This document shows, in pieces, positions 2,044 through 8,828 of a stretch of 8,828 nt of DNA (its first letter is position 1; the number at the start of each line of letters is the position of its first letter). Both the position numbers and the translations under genes were made by a program. The stretch comes from Negativicutes bacterium. Its GTDB lineage: Bacteria > Bacillota_C > Negativicutes > Acidaminococcales > Acidaminococcaceae. The notes below the pieces were generated by a model. It saw only the letters and a list, made by a program, of their open reading frames with translations. It was not told the origin of the DNA and searched no databases. The DNA lies in the NCBI GenBank assembly GCA_009930275.1, contig RZYP01000072.1:1-8828 (forward strand), given 5' to 3'.

Positions 2044-3192
2044 ATGTCTAATCTCAATCCCTTTGCCAAGAGTCCCGAATCGTCTGCAATCGTCGTCACT
2101 GAACCCAATGTATCCGCTTTTGCTGGTGCCACTGGTGGTCCAGGTCAAGCGCCTTCATTAGAGTCACACGTTCATCCTGACTCACATTCTTCGTACACTG
2201 ACCCTTTCAAGGAAGCACTGGAAAGGGAACTGCGCAACAACGACCGTGAAATCATGGAGGTAATGATTGGAGGTTCAGGCGGCATCGGCGGCATTCCTAC
2301 TAGCGTTGACGAAGCACTGACCAAGGAAGTGACTCCTGTCATGGCCATGCATCTTCTATATGAGTCTGTTTCCAAGATGAGCATGGATGAAAAGTACAAT
2401 AAATTTGTCGATGTTCACAACAAGACGCAGTTCAATATCACTAAGGCTCAAAAATTTATCGCCACGGTCGGTTTGCAGCTTGGTATAATTGTAAATTTAA
2501 TCAAAAAAGATGTGATTATGAACAACTTTGGCAAGAAAGCATGGGTAGATTATCGTCGCGAAAAATTCGATAAACATATTCACCCTAATACGCTTGCTGT
2601 ATATATGAAAGTTGCTCAAATTAATAACGTAGCATCATATCTTCATCTTGGAATTGACAGACTAGGAAAGCTCGCAGGTGTAATTGAAAAAAGGGGAATG
2701 ATTCATGACGAAGACCCTATCAAGGATATAATTGACGCTATTGACAATCAAACCATGGCAACAGGCGTGGCCCATGACTTCACTGAAAAATGTGAAGCAG
2801 CGATCTTGCACTATAGAATAAAAAAAGCTGGACTCGACGAAATTACAATGAACGACATCTTGTCTGTACTGGCAGAAGGCAGGTCAATTGACAAGAAGGA
2901 TATCGACAAGATGATCGAGATGAAAAATGGCGGCGTAGATTATCGCCAGTATATCGACAAAGATAGTGAATACAACAATCCAATCACTATTGAAGCCATC
3001 AGCGAGAGCAATAAACCAAAGATTCGGGACGTCAATGCAGAAATTACAAAGCTGAGTGAGACCGTGTCTAAAGCTTTAACCATCCCCCCTTCCAAGATCA
3101 ATCTTGACCTTGAAAAGCTTGATGCACTTATCAATACGCTGGCCGCTTTGCGCCAGAACTTTGCAGCATCTAAAGAAACACTGAAGCAGTAA
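2044..3192 (+). CDS. Hypothetical protein with DUF3102-like segment
   Basis: 382 residues, started at the ATG at 2044 behind a strong AAAGGAG (2031-2037, 6-nt spacing). Residues 1-90 are low-complexity (Ser, Pro, Gly, including GGSGGIGG), probably disordered. Residues about 130-215 follow the layout of DUF3102 proteins of phages and plasmids: a helix beginning FIATVGLQLGIIVNL, a tryptophan in KKAWVDYRREKF, then a helix-turn-helix-like segment HIHPNTLAVYMKVAQINN. The ending resembles the 'S.RTAQ.YM..A' pattern of that family. Residues 326-382 look like an amphipathic helix or coiled coil. No catalytic motif is visible. By family context it could be a nucleoid- or plasmid-associated DNA-binding protein, but the similarity is by eye. 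It is an independent unit, with a possible terminator before it and a strong hairpin after it. Confidence 0.8.
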   Translation: MSNLNPFAKSPESSAIVVTEPNVSAFAGATGGPGQAPSLESHVHPDSHSSYTDPFKEALERELRNNDREIMEVMIGGSGGIGGIPTSVDEALTKEVTPVMAMHLLYESVSKMSMDEKYNKFVDVHNKTQFNITKAQKFIATVGLQLGIIVNLIKKDVIMNNFGKKAWVDYRREKFDKHIHPNTLAVYMKVAQINNVASYLHLGIDRLGKLAGVIEKRGMIHDEDPIKDIIDAIDNQTMATGVAHDFTEKCEAAILHYRIKKAGLDEITMNDILSVLAEGRSIDKKDIDKMIEMKNGGVDYRQYIDKDSEYNNPITIEAISESNKPKIRDVNAEITKLSETVSKALTIPPSKINLDLEKLDALINTLAALRQNFAASKETLKQ

Positions 3193-3239: not shown

Positions 3240-4127
3240 ATGAAAGTATATTTATCATCGCCTTCAGAGAGGCTTATGCGCGAGTTGATGTCAAGATGCG
3301 AAGGAATCAGGCTGAATATCCTTGTGAGCATGGCAATCTTGCCCAATCAATATGAGTCATTCTTGAAGAAATTTGAATCAATCATCAGCACAATCATTCT
3401 CGATAACGGGGCATTTTCTGCCTTGAATTCGAATATTGGAATGACAACAGATCAACTTTTGCACAAATTCAAAGAACACTGCACGAAGTATAAAGAACGT
3501 TATCTAATTATCTTCAGTCCAGACTTCGAATTTGGCCCTGATGGATTCGAGAAGAATTACGAACATTTTCTAGACATGGAAGAACTCGACATTGATGCGG
3601 CACCAGTGATTCACAACCTGAGAAAAAGTGAAATTGAAGCCTATCTATCTCATAACCCTGAATACATTGCTATCGGGCAGTGTAAAGGCCGAACGAATCC
3701 AAGTAATTTGTTTCCTACCGTATATTATCTTAACAATTATGGAGTGAAGGTACATCTGTTCGGCATCACGGAATTTGATTTGCTTGCTGGGTGTCCAGCC
3801 TATTCATGCGATTCAAAGTCTTGGCTTGATGATTCAACCACCGGGGTTGTTAGGTTTTGGAATCCTGAACGGCAGGAACAGAACAAGACTGATATCATCT
3901 ACTTCCCGGACTACCTCGATCAAAAACGGAATGGGACGATCTCCCGCTATGACTACAAGTATCTGGATGTTTTTGAATCATTCACAAAGGCACGCCTGGA
4001 CTTGACCATGGATGATTTCCTCGGACTGAAAGCCGGGCTCTCCCGCGAGCTGGCAAATGCCGTCTATTATAACGATTTGAGTCAGATCGTAACCAATATC
4101 CACATTTCAGATGGAATTGTCTTCTGA
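3240..4127 (+). CDS. TGT/DpdA-like base-exchange enzyme (tRNA-guanine transglycosylase fold)
   Basis: 295 residues; ATG at 3240 behind AGGAG (3230-3234). It matches the compact phage-borne branch of the tRNA-guanine transglycosylase TIM-barrel superfamily. TGT enzymes swap a target guanine for a 7-deazaguanine; DpdA relatives do this in DNA. Visible motifs: IILDNGAFSAL at 53-62, equivalent to the DSGGFQ loop, with D55 as the candidate catalytic acid; YIAIGQCKG at 142-150, in the place of the substrate-binding glycine loop; KVHLFGIT at 170-177; and YSCDSKSWL at 188-196, which matches the YSVDSTSWL motif of phage homologues and supplies D191 as candidate nucleophile. It is shorter than cellular bacterial TGT (about 370 residues). 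I do not see the zinc-binding CxCxxC cluster of those enzymes. No preQ0/preQ1 synthesis genes are adjacent. Substrate (tRNA or DNA) cannot be told from sequence. Confidence 0.8.
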   Translation: MKVYLSSPSERLMRELMSRCEGIRLNILVSMAILPNQYESFLKKFESIISTIILDNGAFSALNSNIGMTTDQLLHKFKEHCTKYKERYLIIFSPDFEFGPDGFEKNYEHFLDMEELDIDAAPVIHNLRKSEIEAYLSHNPEYIAIGQCKGRTNPSNLFPTVYYLNNYGVKVHLFGITEFDLLAGCPAYSCDSKSWLDDSTTGVVRFWNPERQEQNKTDIIYFPDYLDQKRNGTISRYDYKYLDVFESFTKARLDLTMDDFLGLKAGLSRELANAVYYNDLSQIVTNIHISDGIVF

Positions 4128-4229: not shown

Positions 4230-5726
4230 ATGAACTCAAATAATACGCCTATTCCGACACAGATTATGGCACCGGCACCCGGATCTTCCACAAAGTTAGA
4301 CAGCAATACAGTCTGCACGATCATTCAGCAGATGAATTATTGCTATGATCAGAATAAAAATGTGTATTGCGAAGTAGAAATTCAAAATAAGAAAAAATGG
4401 AGACAAATTGAATCAACAGACTTCATTGCCTACGTGCAAACATTTTTTCAAAAAACATATCACAAGGTCTTGAAACAGACAGATATCAAAAATCTTATCC
4501 CGATTCTTCATCTACATGCTCTAGAGAATTGCAAACAAGCAGAGGTTTATAATCGGATTGCTCGACTTGGTGATGAAATTTTCATTGAGACACAAAATAC
4601 CAGTGATGACATCATCAAAATTACACCAGCAGAATGGAGTGTTACTCAGACTAGTCCACTCATCTTCAAGCGGTTTACCCATCAAGCCAGTATTCCAAAT
4701 CCGGCAACGGGTGGAAGTCTTGATGAGCTGTTTTCAATCTTCTCCATAAACAATATCGATGAGCAAATCCTGATCGGCACTTGGTTGGTATCAAGTCTGT
4801 TTACGAACTTGCCCAGACCTCACCTCTGGTTCGTCGGAGAGAAAGGATCTGGAAAAACAACCCTGGCGCTGAGTCTCAAGAAACTGATCGACCCCGTTTC
4901 CAGGGGCAACTTCATGTACAGGAATACAAGCGAGATGGCCCAGGTCATTGACCATCACGCTATTCCGTTTTTCGACAACTTCACCAAGATCAACGTTGAA
5001 ATATCAGACTTGCTCTGCGCAACATTCACTGGAACAGACTTCACAAAAAGAAAACAGTACACTAATGACGATGACTTCACCTTCAGCATCAAAAAGCCTA
5101 TAATCCTTGCTTCAATCTCATTAGGCAATCCGGCTTCGGATCTTCTAGATCGGTGTATTGTCATTGAAAAAAGCAAAAATGCTAGAAAAACTATTCCTGA
5201 AGAAATGCTCATGAAGGCATTTGAGGATAAAAAGCCGAGGATCATTGGCGGAATTCTTGATGCTGCCGTTGAAACATTGAGAACATATCGAGATAACGAA
5301 GTTTCTGAATACATTAGACTTGCAGATTTCCAGAGAATAGGCATTGCCGCCGCTCAAGCACTCGGATTCACCAGGGTACAATTCGAAACAGCTTTGACCA
5401 ATAACTTAAAAAACAAAGGTATTTTGAAATTACAAAGCTTTCCTGTTGCTTCTCTTGTGATTAAATTCATGGAAAACAACGAATATTGGGAAGGAACTAT
5501 GTTTGAACTTCAAAATGAGTTGAGGGATATAGCCGAAGATCCTGATTTGGTGAATTCAAACCCTTCAATTTTGTCTAGAAACTTGAAGGATTGTAAAAAT
5601 ATCCTTGAACAAGCAAATCTTGAGGTTATTCCGGGCTCGAACGGCAGCAACGGCAGGAAGTACACCATTCGACGCATTACATCTAATGATTCGGCAGACT
5701 ATATCGACTACATTCTTGAAGATTGA
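4230..5726 (+). CDS. P-loop ATPase of phage/ICE primase-helicase type
   Basis: 498 residues; ATG at 4230 with AAGGA at 4220-4224. Domains in order: residues about 27-150, the N-terminal region of this family, with alternating strands and EWSVTQTSPLIFKR before the ATPase; residues about 160-350, an AAA+-like ATPase with Walker A GEKGSGKTT (203-211), Walker B-like IPFFDN (D249), TGTDFTKRKQYTNDDD (267-282), the sensor-like strand KKPIILASI (288-296) and DLLDRCIVI (304-312) carrying an arginine-finger candidate R308; residues about 400-482, a winged-helix-like end finishing GSNGRKYTIRRI. This arrangement is common in proteins of phages, plasmids and integrative elements that are annotated as ATP-binding or helicase/primase C-terminal proteins and are thought to unwind DNA for replication. 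It is the best evidence that the element replicates by itself. All key ATPase residues appear intact. The exact helicase superfamily is uncertain. Confidence 0.85.
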   Translation: MNSNNTPIPTQIMAPAPGSSTKLDSNTVCTIIQQMNYCYDQNKNVYCEVEIQNKKKWRQIESTDFIAYVQTFFQKTYHKVLKQTDIKNLIPILHLHALENCKQAEVYNRIARLGDEIFIETQNTSDDIIKITPAEWSVTQTSPLIFKRFTHQASIPNPATGGSLDELFSIFSINNIDEQILIGTWLVSSLFTNLPRPHLWFVGEKGSGKTTLALSLKKLIDPVSRGNFMYRNTSEMAQVIDHHAIPFFDNFTKINVEISDLLCATFTGTDFTKRKQYTNDDDFTFSIKKPIILASISLGNPASDLLDRCIVIEKSKNARKTIPEEMLMKAFEDKKPRIIGGILDAAVETLRTYRDNEVSEYIRLADFQRIGIAAAQALGFTRVQFETALTNNLKNKGILKLQSFPVASLVIKFMENNEYWEGTMFELQNELRDIAEDPDLVNSNPSILSRNLKDCKNILEQANLEVIPGSNGSNGRKYTIRRITSNDSADYIDYILED

Positions 5727-5738
5727 TCAAAATTACCA

Positions 5739-5765
5739 AAAAAGGGGTCTTTATGGCCCCTTTTT
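5739..5765 (+). terminator. Intrinsic terminator after the ATPase gene
   Basis: AAAAAGGGG (5739-5747) pairs with CCCCTTTTT (5757-5765); the stem can be extended inward by T-G and C-G pairs to a 5-nt loop. Because of the flanking A and T runs it could work in both directions. Confidence 0.8.
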
Positions 5766-6123
5766 CTTTGAGCATCCCATTTTTTCCTTCCCTTGGTCAT
5801 TATCGGCCCCAGCCTCTCCCCCTTTACAATGGTCAACGCAGGTGAAGCAGGCATCGAATGTGAAAAACAAGCTATTTATTTATTATCTTTGAAAAATATT
5901 AAAAAAATACATGAAAATTTAGCTGCTTTAGCTGCGCCACCTGCGAAGACTAAGTGAAAGTTCAATTCAAGTTTCGTTGATAATCATACTCTTTTGATTT
6001 TGAATAAATTTTGTGCCGTTCCAGTAACCAGACCCTTTGGCGATAAAGGGGAAGGCGAATCGCGACAATACTGAACAAATCAATGATTGATTCAAAAATA
6101 TCTATATTATTTTGACATTCATT
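5766..6123. other. AT-rich gene-free stretch
   Basis: I find no credible gene here. Visible structure is limited to a 9-bp tandem duplication TTTAGCTGC x2 (5918-5935) followed by a degenerate third unit (5936-5944), and the small hairpin CCCTTT (6033-6038) / AAAGGG (6045-6050). The AT richness next to a replication ATPase gene would suit an origin, but I see no clear iterons. Confidence 0.4.
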
Positions 6124-6208
6124 TCTTGATCAAGAGAAGAGTTTTCATTCGTTTGATACAGATATTTCTTTCATATAATGAGAAGTTTTGGCGTTTTGTT
6201 TGATCAAA
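6124..6208 (+). promoter_or_regulatory. Promoter flanked by two TTGATCAA palindromes
   Basis: A consensus -10 TATAAT lies at 6174-6179. The -35 candidate is TTGATA at 6153-6158 (5 of 6 matches), with a 15-bp spacer, shorter than the ideal 17. Palindromes centred on TGATCA lie on both sides: TCTTGATCAAGA (6124-6135) upstream, and TTTGATCAAA (6199-6208) where the start of the transcript would be. A third TTGATCAA (5723-5730) overlaps the stop of the ATPase gene. This looks like a repressor-controlled promoter for the non-coding transcript downstream; the protein that binds is unknown. Confidence 0.5.
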
Positions 6209-6304
6209 AGACCAGAAACATTATCTGAAAGACAATTTCAAACATCACAGACAGTATATTTGTCATGGGTGCCTTGCAGTTGATCCAGTCCAAGTGCCGC
6301 TGTT

Positions 6305-6890
6305 GTGCGGACCATTCGTATCTGAACGAATGGAAGTCAAAAAATACCAAGTTCTTTTTTGCGAAGAACTGCCAACCCGTTCTAGGAAACGATAACGGGG
6401 GAAGGGCTGAGACTGAGGAATTAGCCTACATCACGGTGGCGCATACATAAGACGAGACTCATGGCAAGTCGAAATCGTTGAATTTTTGATTCACACAGGA
6501 AAAGGTTCAGACCAATCCCTTTTACGGATGTATGCAAGCGATTATATGCTGGATGATTCTGAATGGATTCGACAATGACCAAGGGAAGCCCATTTTTAAT
6601 GGGTGGCTGAGTACTTGTAAGGAGTACACCGAAATAACAACCCTCGGAAAGATAAATGTAAGAAATAGACAATTAAGATAATGAAGAAGTATTTTAGAAC
6701 AAACAATATATACATTAAAATTTTGTAATTATAGATGCCCCTGAATTTGGGCTTAAACTAAATTCGACATATATTCACTCTTTCTTTCGAACAAATTGTT
6801 TTGGGGTTGTTATTTCGGGATAGCCGGATGCGGGAAAACCGCCTGTCCGGCTGTGATTCGGGGCTTGGGCTGGTGACAGACCATTCTATC
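6305..6890 (+). ncRNA. Probable ORF-less group II intron
   Basis: About 586 nt with no reading frame, but with helices in the order expected of a group II ribozyme. It opens with GTGCG (6305-6309), the consensus 5' end. Domain I-like helices: CCATTCGT/ACGAATGG (6312-6333); AGTTCTT/AAGAACT (6350-6370); a branched element GCCAACC (6371-6377) with GGTGGC (6435-6440) enclosing two hairpins (6376-6399 and 6405-6426); then GCATACAT (6441-6448) paired with ATGTATGC (6528-6535). Domain II/III-like hairpins lie at 6586-6608 and 6611-6627. A perfect 15-bp stem, 6629-6643 with 6804-6818, matches the domain IV base; its loop is AT-rich and has no reverse transcriptase. Two bases later comes domain V (6821-6853), then a domain VI-like segment ending TTCTATC at 6890, with an unpaired A at 6883, 8 nt from the end. 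Boundaries are approximate. I could not find a convincing EBS1-IBS1 pairing, so activity is uncertain. Confidence 0.6.
6821..6853 (+). ncRNA. Group II intron domain V (catalytic hairpin)
   Basis: The 9-bp lower helix pairs TAGCCGGAT (6821-6829) with GTCCGGCTG (6845-6853). It carries the catalytic triad AGC at 6822-6824. The upper helix is GCGG (6830-6833) with CCGC (6839-6842). The two-base bulge CT (6843-6844) falls exactly where domain V has its metal-binding bulge. Consensus domain V is GAGCCGUAUGCG..GAAA..CGCACGUACGGUUC. Deviations: the loop is GAAAA rather than a GNRA tetraloop, the upper stem is 4 bp, and the first pair is U-G. These may be drift or a subclass feature. Confidence 0.7.
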
Positions 6891-6963
6891 GATGCCCATG
6901 GTTTCCAAGGATGCTTATTCCTGGAGATTATGGGCGGCTGTCATGTTAGAATTGAATAACGGC

Positions 6964-6993
6964 AGCTCTCTGAGTGATCAGGGAGCTTTTTTT
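6964..6993 (+). terminator. Strong intrinsic terminator closing the non-coding transcript
   Basis: AGCTCTCTGA (6964-6973), loop GTGA, TCAGGGAGCT (6978-6987), a 10-bp stem with one T-G wobble, followed by seven T residues (6987-6993). With the promoter at 6153-6179 it bounds a transcript of about 800 nt, of which about 120 nt precede and 100 nt follow the intron. Confidence 0.85.
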
Positions 6994-7003
6994 GTGTCCA
7001 AAA

Positions 7004-7021
7004 TTTCCAGGTTCCTGGAAA
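7004..7021. promoter_or_regulatory. 18-bp palindrome downstream of the terminator
   Basis: TTTCCAGG (7004-7011), TT, CCTGGAAA (7014-7021). The two-base centre makes it a better protein-binding dyad than an RNA hairpin. It lies 11 bp after the T run of the terminator and 215 bp before the next gene. Confidence 0.4.
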
Positions 7022-7158
7022 AAAATCGAACTCCATATTTCGAATCTAAAGCCCGTCGACATGAAATTTGGATAGTTGACCTGCCCGCCGCCATAAAATC
7101 CCGTCCTGGGCCATTTCTGTGCAAATTCTCCGAAAAGCCTTCTTCAAGATTGGTGGAG

Positions 7159-7172
7159 CAGCTTCGAAGCTG
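7159..7172. promoter_or_regulatory. 14-bp perfect palindrome ahead of the AbrB-like gene
   Basis: CAGCTTCGAAGCTG is its own reverse complement and is followed by TCATTTTT. It could be an operator for autoregulation of the gene at 7236 or a short terminator hairpin (5-bp stem, TCGA loop). A weak promoter candidate, TTGAGG (7179-7184) with TATCCT (7201-7206), lies directly after it, which favours an operator. Confidence 0.4.
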
Positions 7173-7235
7173 TCATTTTTGAGGTCAAAATACAGATATT
7201 TATCCTTAATACACCAACATATAAGGAGAAATATC

Positions 7236-7595
7236 ATGGGCGAACCCAAAGCTGAAGAAACGACCAAGAAGAAGAGAATTGAAAGCAAGTACAATGCTGC
7301 AAAGCTCCGTGAAGCTATTAAAGGCGGAAATAATGCCGTTCAAATCATGAAGATTCTGGACATCAAGCACAAGCAAACTTTGAAGCAGTACGTTTTGAAG
7401 CTAATAAGCTCTGACAAGCAATTTTACGAAATTCCTGGTCTTTACATGAACAGTTCTTCCAAAGCGAAAGTATCAAAGTATGGAACAATCAAGCTAATTC
7501 TTAAGAATTACGATTTGGGTGATGTTGAATTCAAGGAAGATGATGAATTCTCTGTCTACTCTGAAGAGAACCGAATCATTCTTGAAAAGCTCTAA
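7236..7595 (+). CDS. Small HTH plus AbrB-like putative regulator
   Basis: 119 residues. The ATG at 7236 is chosen over a far upstream start because AAGGAG (7223-7228) sits 7 nt before it; an upstream extension would also cross the palindrome and promoter candidate. Residues 3-14 are Lys/Glu-rich. Residues 21-60 (AAKLREAIKGG..VQIMKILDIKHKQTLKQYV) look like a small helix-turn-helix. Residues 77-119 show the swapped-hairpin AbrB/SpoVT pattern: KVSKYGTIKLIL, then KEDDEFSVYSEENRIILEKL. AbrB-like proteins bind DNA as dimers, acting as transition-state regulators or antitoxins. No toxin gene follows (a terminator does), so a transcription regulator is more likely than an antitoxin. It is a candidate to bind the palindromes in this window. 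Domain calls are by eye. Confidence 0.7.
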   Translation: MGEPKAEETTKKKRIESKYNAAKLREAIKGGNNAVQIMKILDIKHKQTLKQYVLKLISSDKQFYEIPGLYMNSSSKAKVSKYGTIKLILKNYDLGDVEFKEDDEFSVYSEENRIILEKL

Positions 7596-7611
7596 TGTGG
7601 TCTTCTTTAAC

Positions 7612-7637
7612 ATGCCATGGTAAAACATGGCATTTTT
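7612..7637 (+). terminator. Intrinsic terminator after the AbrB-like gene
   Basis: ATGCCATG (7612-7619), loop of 6 nt, CATGGCAT (7626-7633), perfect 8-bp stem running into TTTTT (7633-7637). Confidence 0.8.
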
Positions 7638-7704
7638 CTTTTCCTTTATTGAGCAAGTTGTGGCCATGTTATTTTCAACAAAACATTAAAGATATAAAAA
7701 TTTA

Positions 7705-7734
7705 AATGTAAGATTTTCCATAAAAACTTACATT
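7705..7734. promoter_or_regulatory. 8-bp inverted repeat with 14-nt spacer
   Basis: AATGTAAG (7705-7712) and CTTACATT (7727-7734) are perfect inverted copies in an AT-rich, gene-free stretch upstream of the short recombinase. The half-site spacing, about two helical turns between arm centres, suits a dimeric protein or the paired arms of a recombination site. Confidence 0.4.
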
Positions 7735-7835
7735 CGATAAAATACAAGCTCGATCTTCAAGGATATTAAGCGGATAAGAAGTCCCAGAAATATGCTTGGT
7801 GATTGAGCTTTGTTTTGAATGTTAGATTTCGTTTG

Positions 7836-7851
7836 GTTTTCTTTAGAAAAC
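7836..7851. promoter_or_regulatory. 16-bp palindrome just before the recombinase start
   Basis: GTTTTCT (7836-7842), TT, AGAAAAC (7845-7851), ending 7 bp before the GGGAG ribosome binding site of the gene at 7871. The position fits a repressor site or a recombinase-binding site next to its own gene. Confidence 0.4.
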
Positions 7852-7870
7852 AATAATTGGGAGATTAAAC

Positions 7871-8428
7871 ATGAAAGTTGAAGCTATCACAGAACAGAAA
7901 GACATAAAACGTATCAAAAAGTTGTTACAAGACAATCCTCGTGATCGATTGCTGTTCATTTTAGGCATCAACACCGGACTACGTGCACAGGACATTCTCG
8001 CCTTGAAAATAGGCGACGTGCTTGAGTGCAAGGTTGGATCAAGAATTTCAATCAAGGAGAAAAAGACGGGAAAAGACAACGTCATCATCATTAACTCTGA
8101 AATTTACAGTGCACTTGAGGATTACCTGAATGATATTCCGAAAACACCAGAAAATTATCTGTTCAAGAGTCGAAAAGGAAAGAATGCTCCATTAACAACA
8201 TATGCTGTGATGAACTACATCAAAGATTGGTGCAGAAAGCTCAACATCAAAACTCATGTGGGAGCGCATACCTTAAGAAAGACGTTTTGCTACCAACAAA
8301 GGAAAATACACGGAACAAGTTGGGAGGTGCTCGCAAAGAGACTCAATCATTCTTCACCTGCAATTACTCGGCGTTATCTGGGCATAAAAGAAGAGGAAGT
8401 CGAGGAAATCCTGATGCATACAATTTAA
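7871..8428 (+). CDS. Short tyrosine recombinase (catalytic domain only)
   Basis: 185 residues, ATG at 7871 with GGGAG (7859-7863) at 7-nt spacing. The protein is essentially only the C-terminal catalytic domain of the phage integrase/XerCD family. It contains the full active site: R38 in NTGLRAQDILAL, the beta-hairpin lysine K65 in KEKKTGK, H133 and R136 in AHTLRKTF, H160 in RLNHSS, and the nucleophile Y169 in ITRRYLGI. The enzyme cuts and rejoins DNA through a 3'-phosphotyrosine. Ordinary integrases have 300-400 residues with an N-terminal core-binding domain, which is missing here. Because the start has a proper ribosome binding site and an upstream palindrome, this is likely a genuinely compact recombinase, not a truncation. 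Similar short enzymes occur on phages and plasmids and may resolve multimers or invert DNA. Confidence 0.9.
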   Translation: MKVEAITEQKDIKRIKKLLQDNPRDRLLFILGINTGLRAQDILALKIGDVLECKVGSRISIKEKKTGKDNVIIINSEIYSALEDYLNDIPKTPENYLFKSRKGKNAPLTTYAVMNYIKDWCRKLNIKTHVGAHTLRKTFCYQQRKIHGTSWEVLAKRLNHSSPAITRRYLGIKEEEVEEILMHTI

Positions 8429-8481: not shown

Positions 8482-8828
8482 ATGGGAGTTTACCAAAGAG
8501 ATGGACGTTGGCTTGTATACTGGTTTGAGGAAGGGAAAAGGCGGGATAAGTCTTTTGGAAGGGGAGAAGATGCGAAGGTTCAAGCTGAAAAGTTTGATCA
8601 AGCTGCACGTCAATGCACCGTTGAAGCGGGAATGGTTCTGGGCAACGCGATTGTTGCTCCAGAAACATCAGAACCGGAGGAGGAGATTGGAAAGACTGGT
8701 CCAACAGGAATTACGTTTGGGCGACTTGCCAGGATGCACCTGGATCATCTCCTGGCCTCCGGGAAAACCGAGAAGCACATCAAAAACGTTGCCGTCCTGC
8801 TGAAGAATTCATTCTTTGCCCTTCTGGG
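8482..8828 (+). CDS. Tyrosine integrase, N-terminal part (runs off the window)
   Basis: An open frame begins at the ATG at 8482, behind GGAGG (8473-8477), and is still open at the end of the window (115 complete codons). Residues 1-45 (MGVYQRDGRWLVYWFEEGKRRDKSFGRG...) have the three-strand-plus-helix pattern of the arm-type/AP2-like DNA-binding domain at the start of phage integrases, and this wording is one I associate with Desulfovibrio integrases. Residues 50-75 are an acidic linker. Residues about 76-115 (TFGRLARMHLDHLLASGKTEKHI...) begin the helical core-binding domain. The catalytic domain lies beyond the window, so activity cannot be judged. It is probably the element's main integrase, with its attachment site beyond the right edge. 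Confidence 0.85.
   Translation, partial: MGVYQRDGRWLVYWFEEGKRRDKSFGRGEDAKVQAEKFDQAARQCTVEAGMVLGNAIVAPETSEPEEEIGKTGPTGITFGRLARMHLDHLLASGKTEKHIKNVAVLLKNSFFALL

Follow-up and report, generated by a model that had tools for sequence, protein, structure and literature searches.

Positions 6305 to 6893 of the window (the whole 8828-base contig that was analysed) are best read as an ORF-less group II intron, lying on the coding strand in a gene-free stretch (~5727-7235) of an integrated element, probably that of a Desulfovibrio-like bacterium, a reading to which a probability of roughly 0.6 can be given. By weight of evidence it is highly probable that the segment is a real group II intron of one kind or another, and its best reading is that of a retroelement derivative without a protein of its own, which either needs a maturase in trans or has already decayed. 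This reading is preferred because the segment combines a match to the Rfam model RF00029, a perfect domain IV stem placed 3 bases before domain V, a fold with a z of -3.73, and no reverse transcriptase (RT). ORF-less group II introns are an uncommon but known form, and a length of about 590 nt fits them, since such introns are typically ~600 nt long according to a passage in PMC12350094. Against the reading stand a sub-threshold Rfam score, the lack of a match to the Rfam D1D4 models, a domain I that folds no better than shuffles, an improbable ID helix, weak EBS-IBS pairing, a G-C pair in the domain V triad, and flanks that hold no convincing interrupted gene. An ORF-less group II intron had also been proposed in the initial annotation of this DNA; the proposal survives as the best reading, with no other Rfam family matching at E<=1, but its RF00029 match stays below the cut-off.

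Domains IV to VI

The features that carry the identification are the following, all on the + strand:

6305..6893, +: putative ORF-less group II intron, 589 nt (from RF00029, the domain IV stem, GTGCG and the fold; 3' end tentative)
6629..6643, +: domain IV stem, 5' arm, pairing perfectly with 6804-6818
6644..6803, +: domain IV interior, 160 nt, with no RT remnant seen
6804..6818, +: domain IV stem, 3' arm, pairing perfectly with 6629-6643
6822..6852, +: domain V, AGCCGGAT / GCGG / GAAAA / CCGC / CT bulge / GTCCGGCT
6857..6893, +: domain VI from the Rfam alignment, with candidate branch-point A6888 and basal pairs 6859-6861/6889-6891

When the window is compared with 4227 Rfam families, the model of domains V-VI (RF00029) matches 6819-6895 on the + strand over all 77 model positions, with 35.0 bits and an E of 5e-4, and no further Rfam family reaches E<=1; re-scored on 801 nt, the same match reaches an E of 4.5e-5. 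The curated gathering cut-off of this family is 40 bits, so that the test set in the initial annotation, a domain V score exceeding the Rfam cut-off, is formally failed (35.0 vs 40 bits). A published survey accepted scores >24 bits with the RF00029 model, as stated in a passage of PMC8919778. Because the score is below the Rfam cut-off, filing the segment as a group II intron rests on domain V and the domain IV stem together.

The domain IV stem consists of 15 bp with no mismatch, as first described, and is followed by a linker to domain V that measures 3 nt when counted to the 8-bp helix, rather than the two bases given originally. An inverted repeat of 15 bp with arms <=250 nt apart is rare, arising in 1/2000 shuffles of 6200-7000 and in 1/200 shuffles of the whole window. 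The interior of the domain folds no better than shuffles (z 0.4). Domain V holds the AGC triad, the GCGG/CCGC upper helix, and the 2-nt bulge (CT) that had been recognised in it from the start, with pair probabilities of 0.86-1.0, and the features of domains IV and V follow each other in canonical order and spacing.

Domain VI is less distinct. Its fold is weak (z -1.47), and A6888 occupies the branch position in the RF00029 alignment. Following the AY rule for intron 3' ends, the intron more likely ends at 6893, between GAT and GCCC and five bases past A6888, than at 6890; the latter position, chosen in the initial annotation, is too short by the AY rule and by Rfam alike, the RF00029 match extending to 6895.

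The proposed folding check gave a divided answer. The fold of 6305-6895 beats 100/100 shuffles (z -3.73), but the reverse strand of the same segment comes close to it (z -3.3 against 40 shuffles), and fold energy by itself therefore names neither strand nor fold. It contributes little beyond the domain IV and V stems.

Domain I and exon pairing

Group II introns begin with the consensus GUGYG, at the head of domain I. In the 5' half of the putative intron the following features can be drawn:

6305..6540, +: domain I, tentative, its usual order drawable from a 5' GTGCG
6305-6309, +: GTGCG 5' end, fitting GUGYG; a 5-mer, weak alone
6312-6333, +: domain I hairpin, pair probability ~0.9
6350-6370, +: domain I hairpin, from the fold
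6371-6374/6437-6440, +: GCCA/TGGC enclosing IC1, pair probability 0.26-0.34
6376-6399, +: IC1, pair probability 0.8-1.0
6441-6448/6528-6535, +: ID helix GCATACAT/ATGTATGC
6456..6470, +: candidate EBS2 hairpin GACT[CATGGCA]AGTC, TGGCA at 6462-6466 against TGCCG at 6295-6299
6478..6510, +: candidate EBS1 hairpin, 10-bp helix with loop 6488-6500, ACAG at 6495-6498 against CTGT at 6300-6303
6541..6628, +: domains II and III, borders approximate, from their position between domain I and the domain IV stem and from the fold

The part of the original domain I model that holds is thus its GTGCG start and its drawable order of helices; as a fold, the region is not significant, since 6305-6628 alone has a z of -1.5, with 8/100 shuffles equally stable, and the Rfam D1D4 families whose use had been advised give no match at E<=10 in the 6200-7000 region (801 nt). 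The missing D1D4 match is not disqualifying, because 14 of 20 loci drawn from 60 fetched, all with RF00029 over the cut-off, lack one too, a D1D4 match at gathering score being present in 6/20 only. The long-range pairing claimed earlier, that of the ID helix, is complementary as described and does form when 6440-6536 is folded alone, but its probability is only 0.07-0.09 in the full-length fold.

As for the pairing with the exons, the candidate EBS2 could form 5 bp with TGCCG (-10 to -6; chance 0.077), and the candidate EBS1 only 4 bp with CTGT (-5 to -2; chance 0.44), in keeping with the earlier remark that an obvious EBS1-IBS1 match is lacking. The candidate EBS1 hairpin, moreover, competes with an alternative fold of similar energy. 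Over the flanks, EBS1 and EBS2 together have a joint chance of 0.034, a weak pairing, and the predicted exon recognition is suggestive only.

A likeness of IC1 and of the 5' end of the putative intron to those of Ll.LtrB and of cyanobacterial introns was considered and dropped. Neither a motif scan of the loci nor three cyanobacterial plasmid loci support any class, and none is claimed.

The host contig and the missing protein

All genes with family matches in the window are on the + strand, in the same orientation as the putative intron. The genes and signals around it are:

1-439, left end: flagellin C-terminal piece (PF00700), the remainder of the gene absent
871-1893, +: ORF, no convincing match
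2044-3192, +: ORF, no convincing match
3240-4127, +: queuine-transglycosylase-like gene (phrog_887, E 6.6e-27)
4230-5726, +: primase/helicase-like gene, by family match
6153..6179, +: promoter-like TTGATA - 15 nt - TATAAT upstream of the intron, proposed by eye
6964..6987, +: terminator-like hairpin of 10 bp followed by TTTTTT, 71 nt past the 3' splice site
7236-7595, +: small ORF, no convincing match
7871-8428, +: tyrosine recombinase, integrase-type, short and complete, 185 aa
8482-8826, +: start of a second integrase-type frame, with weak phrog_1 integrase and AP2-domain matches

The contig starts with AGGGGTGCCC-type motif repeats that lead into the flagellin C-terminal domain (1-439), and this piece perhaps marks an insertion, or the border of the element, at a flagellin gene. 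The protein of 3240-4127 resembles phage queuine tRNA-ribosyltransferases and 7-deazaguanosine inserting enzymes, sharing ~27% identity with phage proteins in alignments that cover up to 68% of it, and its gene is possibly a nucleic-acid base modification gene of the element. The two integrase-type genes (7871-8428 and 8482-8826, both +) stand in tandem. Among the best 120 of 817 integrase relatives, the closest reach 98% identity; those named to genus, at 62-69%, come from Fundidesulfovibrio, Solidesulfovibrio, Desulfovibrio sp. U5L, and Megalodesulfovibrio, and one relative, at 61%, comes from a Candidatus Dojkabacteria MAG. Three of these genera belong to the order Desulfovibrionales, and since the named integrase relatives are mostly from that order, the host probably belongs to it as well.

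The stretch that contains the putative intron, 5727-7235, yielded no gene with a family match, and reading frames across the exon junction of the joined flanks gave no convincing interrupted gene. The frame at 6943-7131 (+), which covers the terminator-like site, is conserved as a predicted protein of 70 aa (P0165; 79%, 50/63 residues). This is the sole relative found of the frame just 3' of the intron, and its alignment starts at query residue 18, short of the junction, being silent on the presence or absence of the intron. P0165 is encoded on a contig of 24,609 bases, a size equal to that of the contig (24,609 bases) holding P0003, which is a relative of the helicase-like protein at 85% identity. 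Plasmid relatives of the helicase-like protein are remote (best rows ~29% identity), and the patterns used on viral contigs detected no relative of this protein or of P0165.

As for the signals, terminator-like sites number 3 in 5600-7900, against 2.0 expected from shuffles, and the promoter scan tests spacers of 16-18 nt and does not list the TTGATA/TATAAT pair with its 15-nt spacer. The motif ATACAGATATTT occurs in three copies, at 6096-6107 (-), 6156-6167 (+), and 7190-7201 (+), one of them inverted and with a mismatch; 0.06 would be expected by chance, and three were seen in 0/200 shuffles. Since the motif precedes both the intron and the gene at 7236, it may be an operator of the element.

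The absence of an RT, noted at the outset for domain IV and the window, is borne out: none was found among the nine frames of the window scanned with Pfam, the best tblastn hit of three group II RT sequences against the window has an E of 1.1, and the 160-nt domain IV interior showed no trace of one.

Search for relatives

Among plasmids and phages, no match to the intron was found by blastn at 1e-5. At E<=10, blastn returned 51 plasmid records, and among the 40 listed most are short domain V matches, the others falling elsewhere in the query. In viral contigs, three domain V patterns and one domain I pattern gave 0 matches each, and a fifth pattern that leaves the triad partner free gave 6 loci. 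None of these six loci showed a domain I match at E<=0.4 with nhmmer, where in L123, L125, and one of the two L124 matches the sequence 5' of domain V is short or absent; L120 and L121 have a domain I of Rfam D1D4 families which the window does not match. One viral locus, L122, holds at 11286-11375 a domain V-VI match of 44.4 bits. It lacks a D1D4 match at E<=0.01, and its frames of >=120 aa in 8500-12500, inspected by eye, revealed no RT; to judge from its sequence, L122 is a further fragment or protein-less copy.

In genome contigs, the pattern ending in GGCT, a rare feature, found one contig, L001, which carries a fragment that is RT-like by its motif, together with a degenerate domain V-like hairpin. 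A blastn search of 398 genomes of the phylum of G001 gave 21 matches in 18 genomes, of which 12 fall in domains V-VI. Of the 9 that fall elsewhere, two (L012 and L016) lie beside or in protein genes and were rejected as chance matches, and the other 7/9 fall in the AT-rich domain IV interior, with E values of 0.001-0.008. The domain I pattern, with 2 mismatches allowed, occurs in 25/398 genomes, every listed match having 2 mismatches, and its reversed control occurs in about as many (34). Finally, nhmmer with 6291-6900 against 134 loci gave 25 rows at E<=1. Of these, 18 stay inside domains V-VI. The remaining 7 comprise L008/L113 and L049/L078, where each pair stands for a single place that spans the passage from domain IV to V, a match confined to domain IV (L013), and L012 and L016. 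Thus, no domain I homologue was found in plasmids, phages, viral contigs, the 398 genomes, or the 134 loci.

Other group II introns were encountered along the way. A short intron without an RT frame lies at 965-1649 of L011, between a D1D4 match (RF02003, 100 bits) and a domain V (42 bits), in a genome of 7.15 Mb, and a near-duplicate of its 5' part precedes it. Several genomes hold group II introns in multiple copies, with 15 matches in G106, 10 in G125, 14 in G062, and 8 in G007. The matches in G106 and G125 are often at contig ends, as would be expected if repeats break the assembly.

The domain V triad and the question of decay

The window's domain V was compared with 39 distinct, perfectly paired domain V sequences from the fetched loci. 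Its GAAAA loop, described as unusual in the initial annotation, recurs in 9/39, and 22/39 have an upper helix of 4 bp capped by a 5-nt loop, these loop counts being biased, as some loci were picked for likeness to the window's domain V (one such set with the pattern that leaves the triad partner free). A pentaloop, which the initial annotation took to indicate a divergent subclass, is thus common in this comparison. The CT bulge is found in 3/39. A feature absent from the initial annotation sets the window apart: the triad G is paired to U (GTT) in 39/39, and the window has C (GCT). The real oddity of this domain V is, on its predicted pairing, a triad G-C replacing the G-U wobble. L001 also has GGCT, having been found by the pattern requiring it, and its imperfect helices place it outside the 39. 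The wobble is a conserved feature of group II introns and not their definition. In another intron, too, the triad G forms a G-U wobble according to a passage in PMC3669008.

The triad bears on the alternative that fares best, unlikely as it is, namely that the segment is a decayed, non-splicing copy that lost its RT and drifts in a non-essential spacer. A G-C pair where all 39 others have G-U would suit such a copy, and the other domain V-like hairpin with G-C, in L001, is degenerate and sits on an RT-like fragment. The same can be said of the 4-bp EBS1-IBS1 pairing (chance 0.44), the sub-threshold score, the weak folds of domains VI and I, and the lack of an interrupted gene that would select for splicing. 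Drift, however, would spoil the helices of domain V and the 15-bp domain IV stem, which are perfectly paired, and without an RT remnant in domain IV the RT would have been cleanly removed, or the form would be old.

The preferred reading remains an ORF-less intron that may still splice, and the following course can be proposed for it. Transcription would start from a promoter upstream of 6200 and run to the terminator-like hairpin at 6964-6987, which would end the intron-carrying transcript; in this RNA a short 5' exon would precede the intron and ~100 nt of 3' exon would follow it. The RNA would fold into domains I-VI and be excised by the usual branching pathway, A6888 attacking at 6304/6305 and the exons joining at ~6893/6894. 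As no RT was detected in the 160-nt domain IV, the intron would depend on a maturase supplied by another intron of the cell for any mobility, and probably also for splicing efficiently.

Two further alternatives do without such a partner. It is improbable that the segment is an independent, maturase-free intron of a lineage missed by the models, kept by the mobile element as a spliced or regulatory RNA between its replication and integration genes; such a lineage would be marked by a domain I invisible to all Rfam D1D4 models and by the Watson-Crick G-C in the triad. Very improbable is an independent, maturase-free self-splicing intron like C.te.I1 of Clostridium tetani, for which the lack of a detected RT in the window and the C.te.I1 precedent itself can be cited, but that precedent is one among >1,500 copies in the part of the review that gives the count (PMC4424553), and the exon pairing is weak. 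Finally, the segment may be no group II intron at all, its domain V-like hairpin having arisen by chance next to an RNA or terminator of another kind. This would account for a score below the gathering cut-off, a missing D1D4 match, and a non-significant domain I, but it is exceedingly improbable given an E of 5e-4 when 8.8 kb are compared with all of Rfam and a 15-bp stem in the domain IV position of a kind seen in 1/2000 shuffles.

ORF-less introns are a minority in bacteria and are seen as steps from a retroelement to a splicing-only intron. Pipelines that demand both the RF00029 cut-off and a D1D4 match would miss this one. Should it splice with its triad G-C, the extent to which the G-U wobble is required would become apparent.

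Comparison with known systems

Circularly permuted group II RNAs are protein-less too, as the putative intron is, but have domains V-VI at their 5' end according to the text excerpted from PMC8637638; in the window the order is canonical, GTGCG at 6305 preceding domain V at 6822 on the same strand, and a circularly permuted RNA was rejected.

The RF00029-positive loci L007-L010, of the GCGG-GAAAA-CCGC type, have nearly the same domain V (AGCCGGATGCGGGAAAACCGC, 2-nt bulge, GTCCGG), which ends in GGTT whereas that of the window ends in GGCT, and this type has no domain I similarity to the window. Two loci of this domain V type (L107 and L113) have upstream frames with RT-like motifs.

Six group II introns of phages have been called ORF-less, with an RT in trans suggested for them (passage in PMC12350094), and as far as that passage goes the putative intron resembles them as a protein-less copy in a mobile element; it differs in that no phage relative of 6200-7000 was found.

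In bacteria at large, 888 of 13,041 introns are without a protein in the part of PMC8919778 that gives these counts. The corresponding passage of PMC4424553 describes bacterial ORF-less introns as rare and nearly always accompanied in the genome by a related intron able to act in trans, and gives C.te.I1 as the only bacterial example known whose genome has no related protein, a single exception in a count of >1,500 copies. Unlike both C.te.I1 and the ORF-less introns of a thermophilic cyanobacterium, the putative intron has a domain I missed by the Rfam models and a triad G-C, and is without a known partner intron or interrupted gene. With both, as far as they are described in the excerpted texts (PMC3919590 and PMC4424553 for C.te.I1, PMC2882425 for the cyanobacterium), it shares a domain V, a domain IV stem, a length of ~600 nt, and the lack of an RT.
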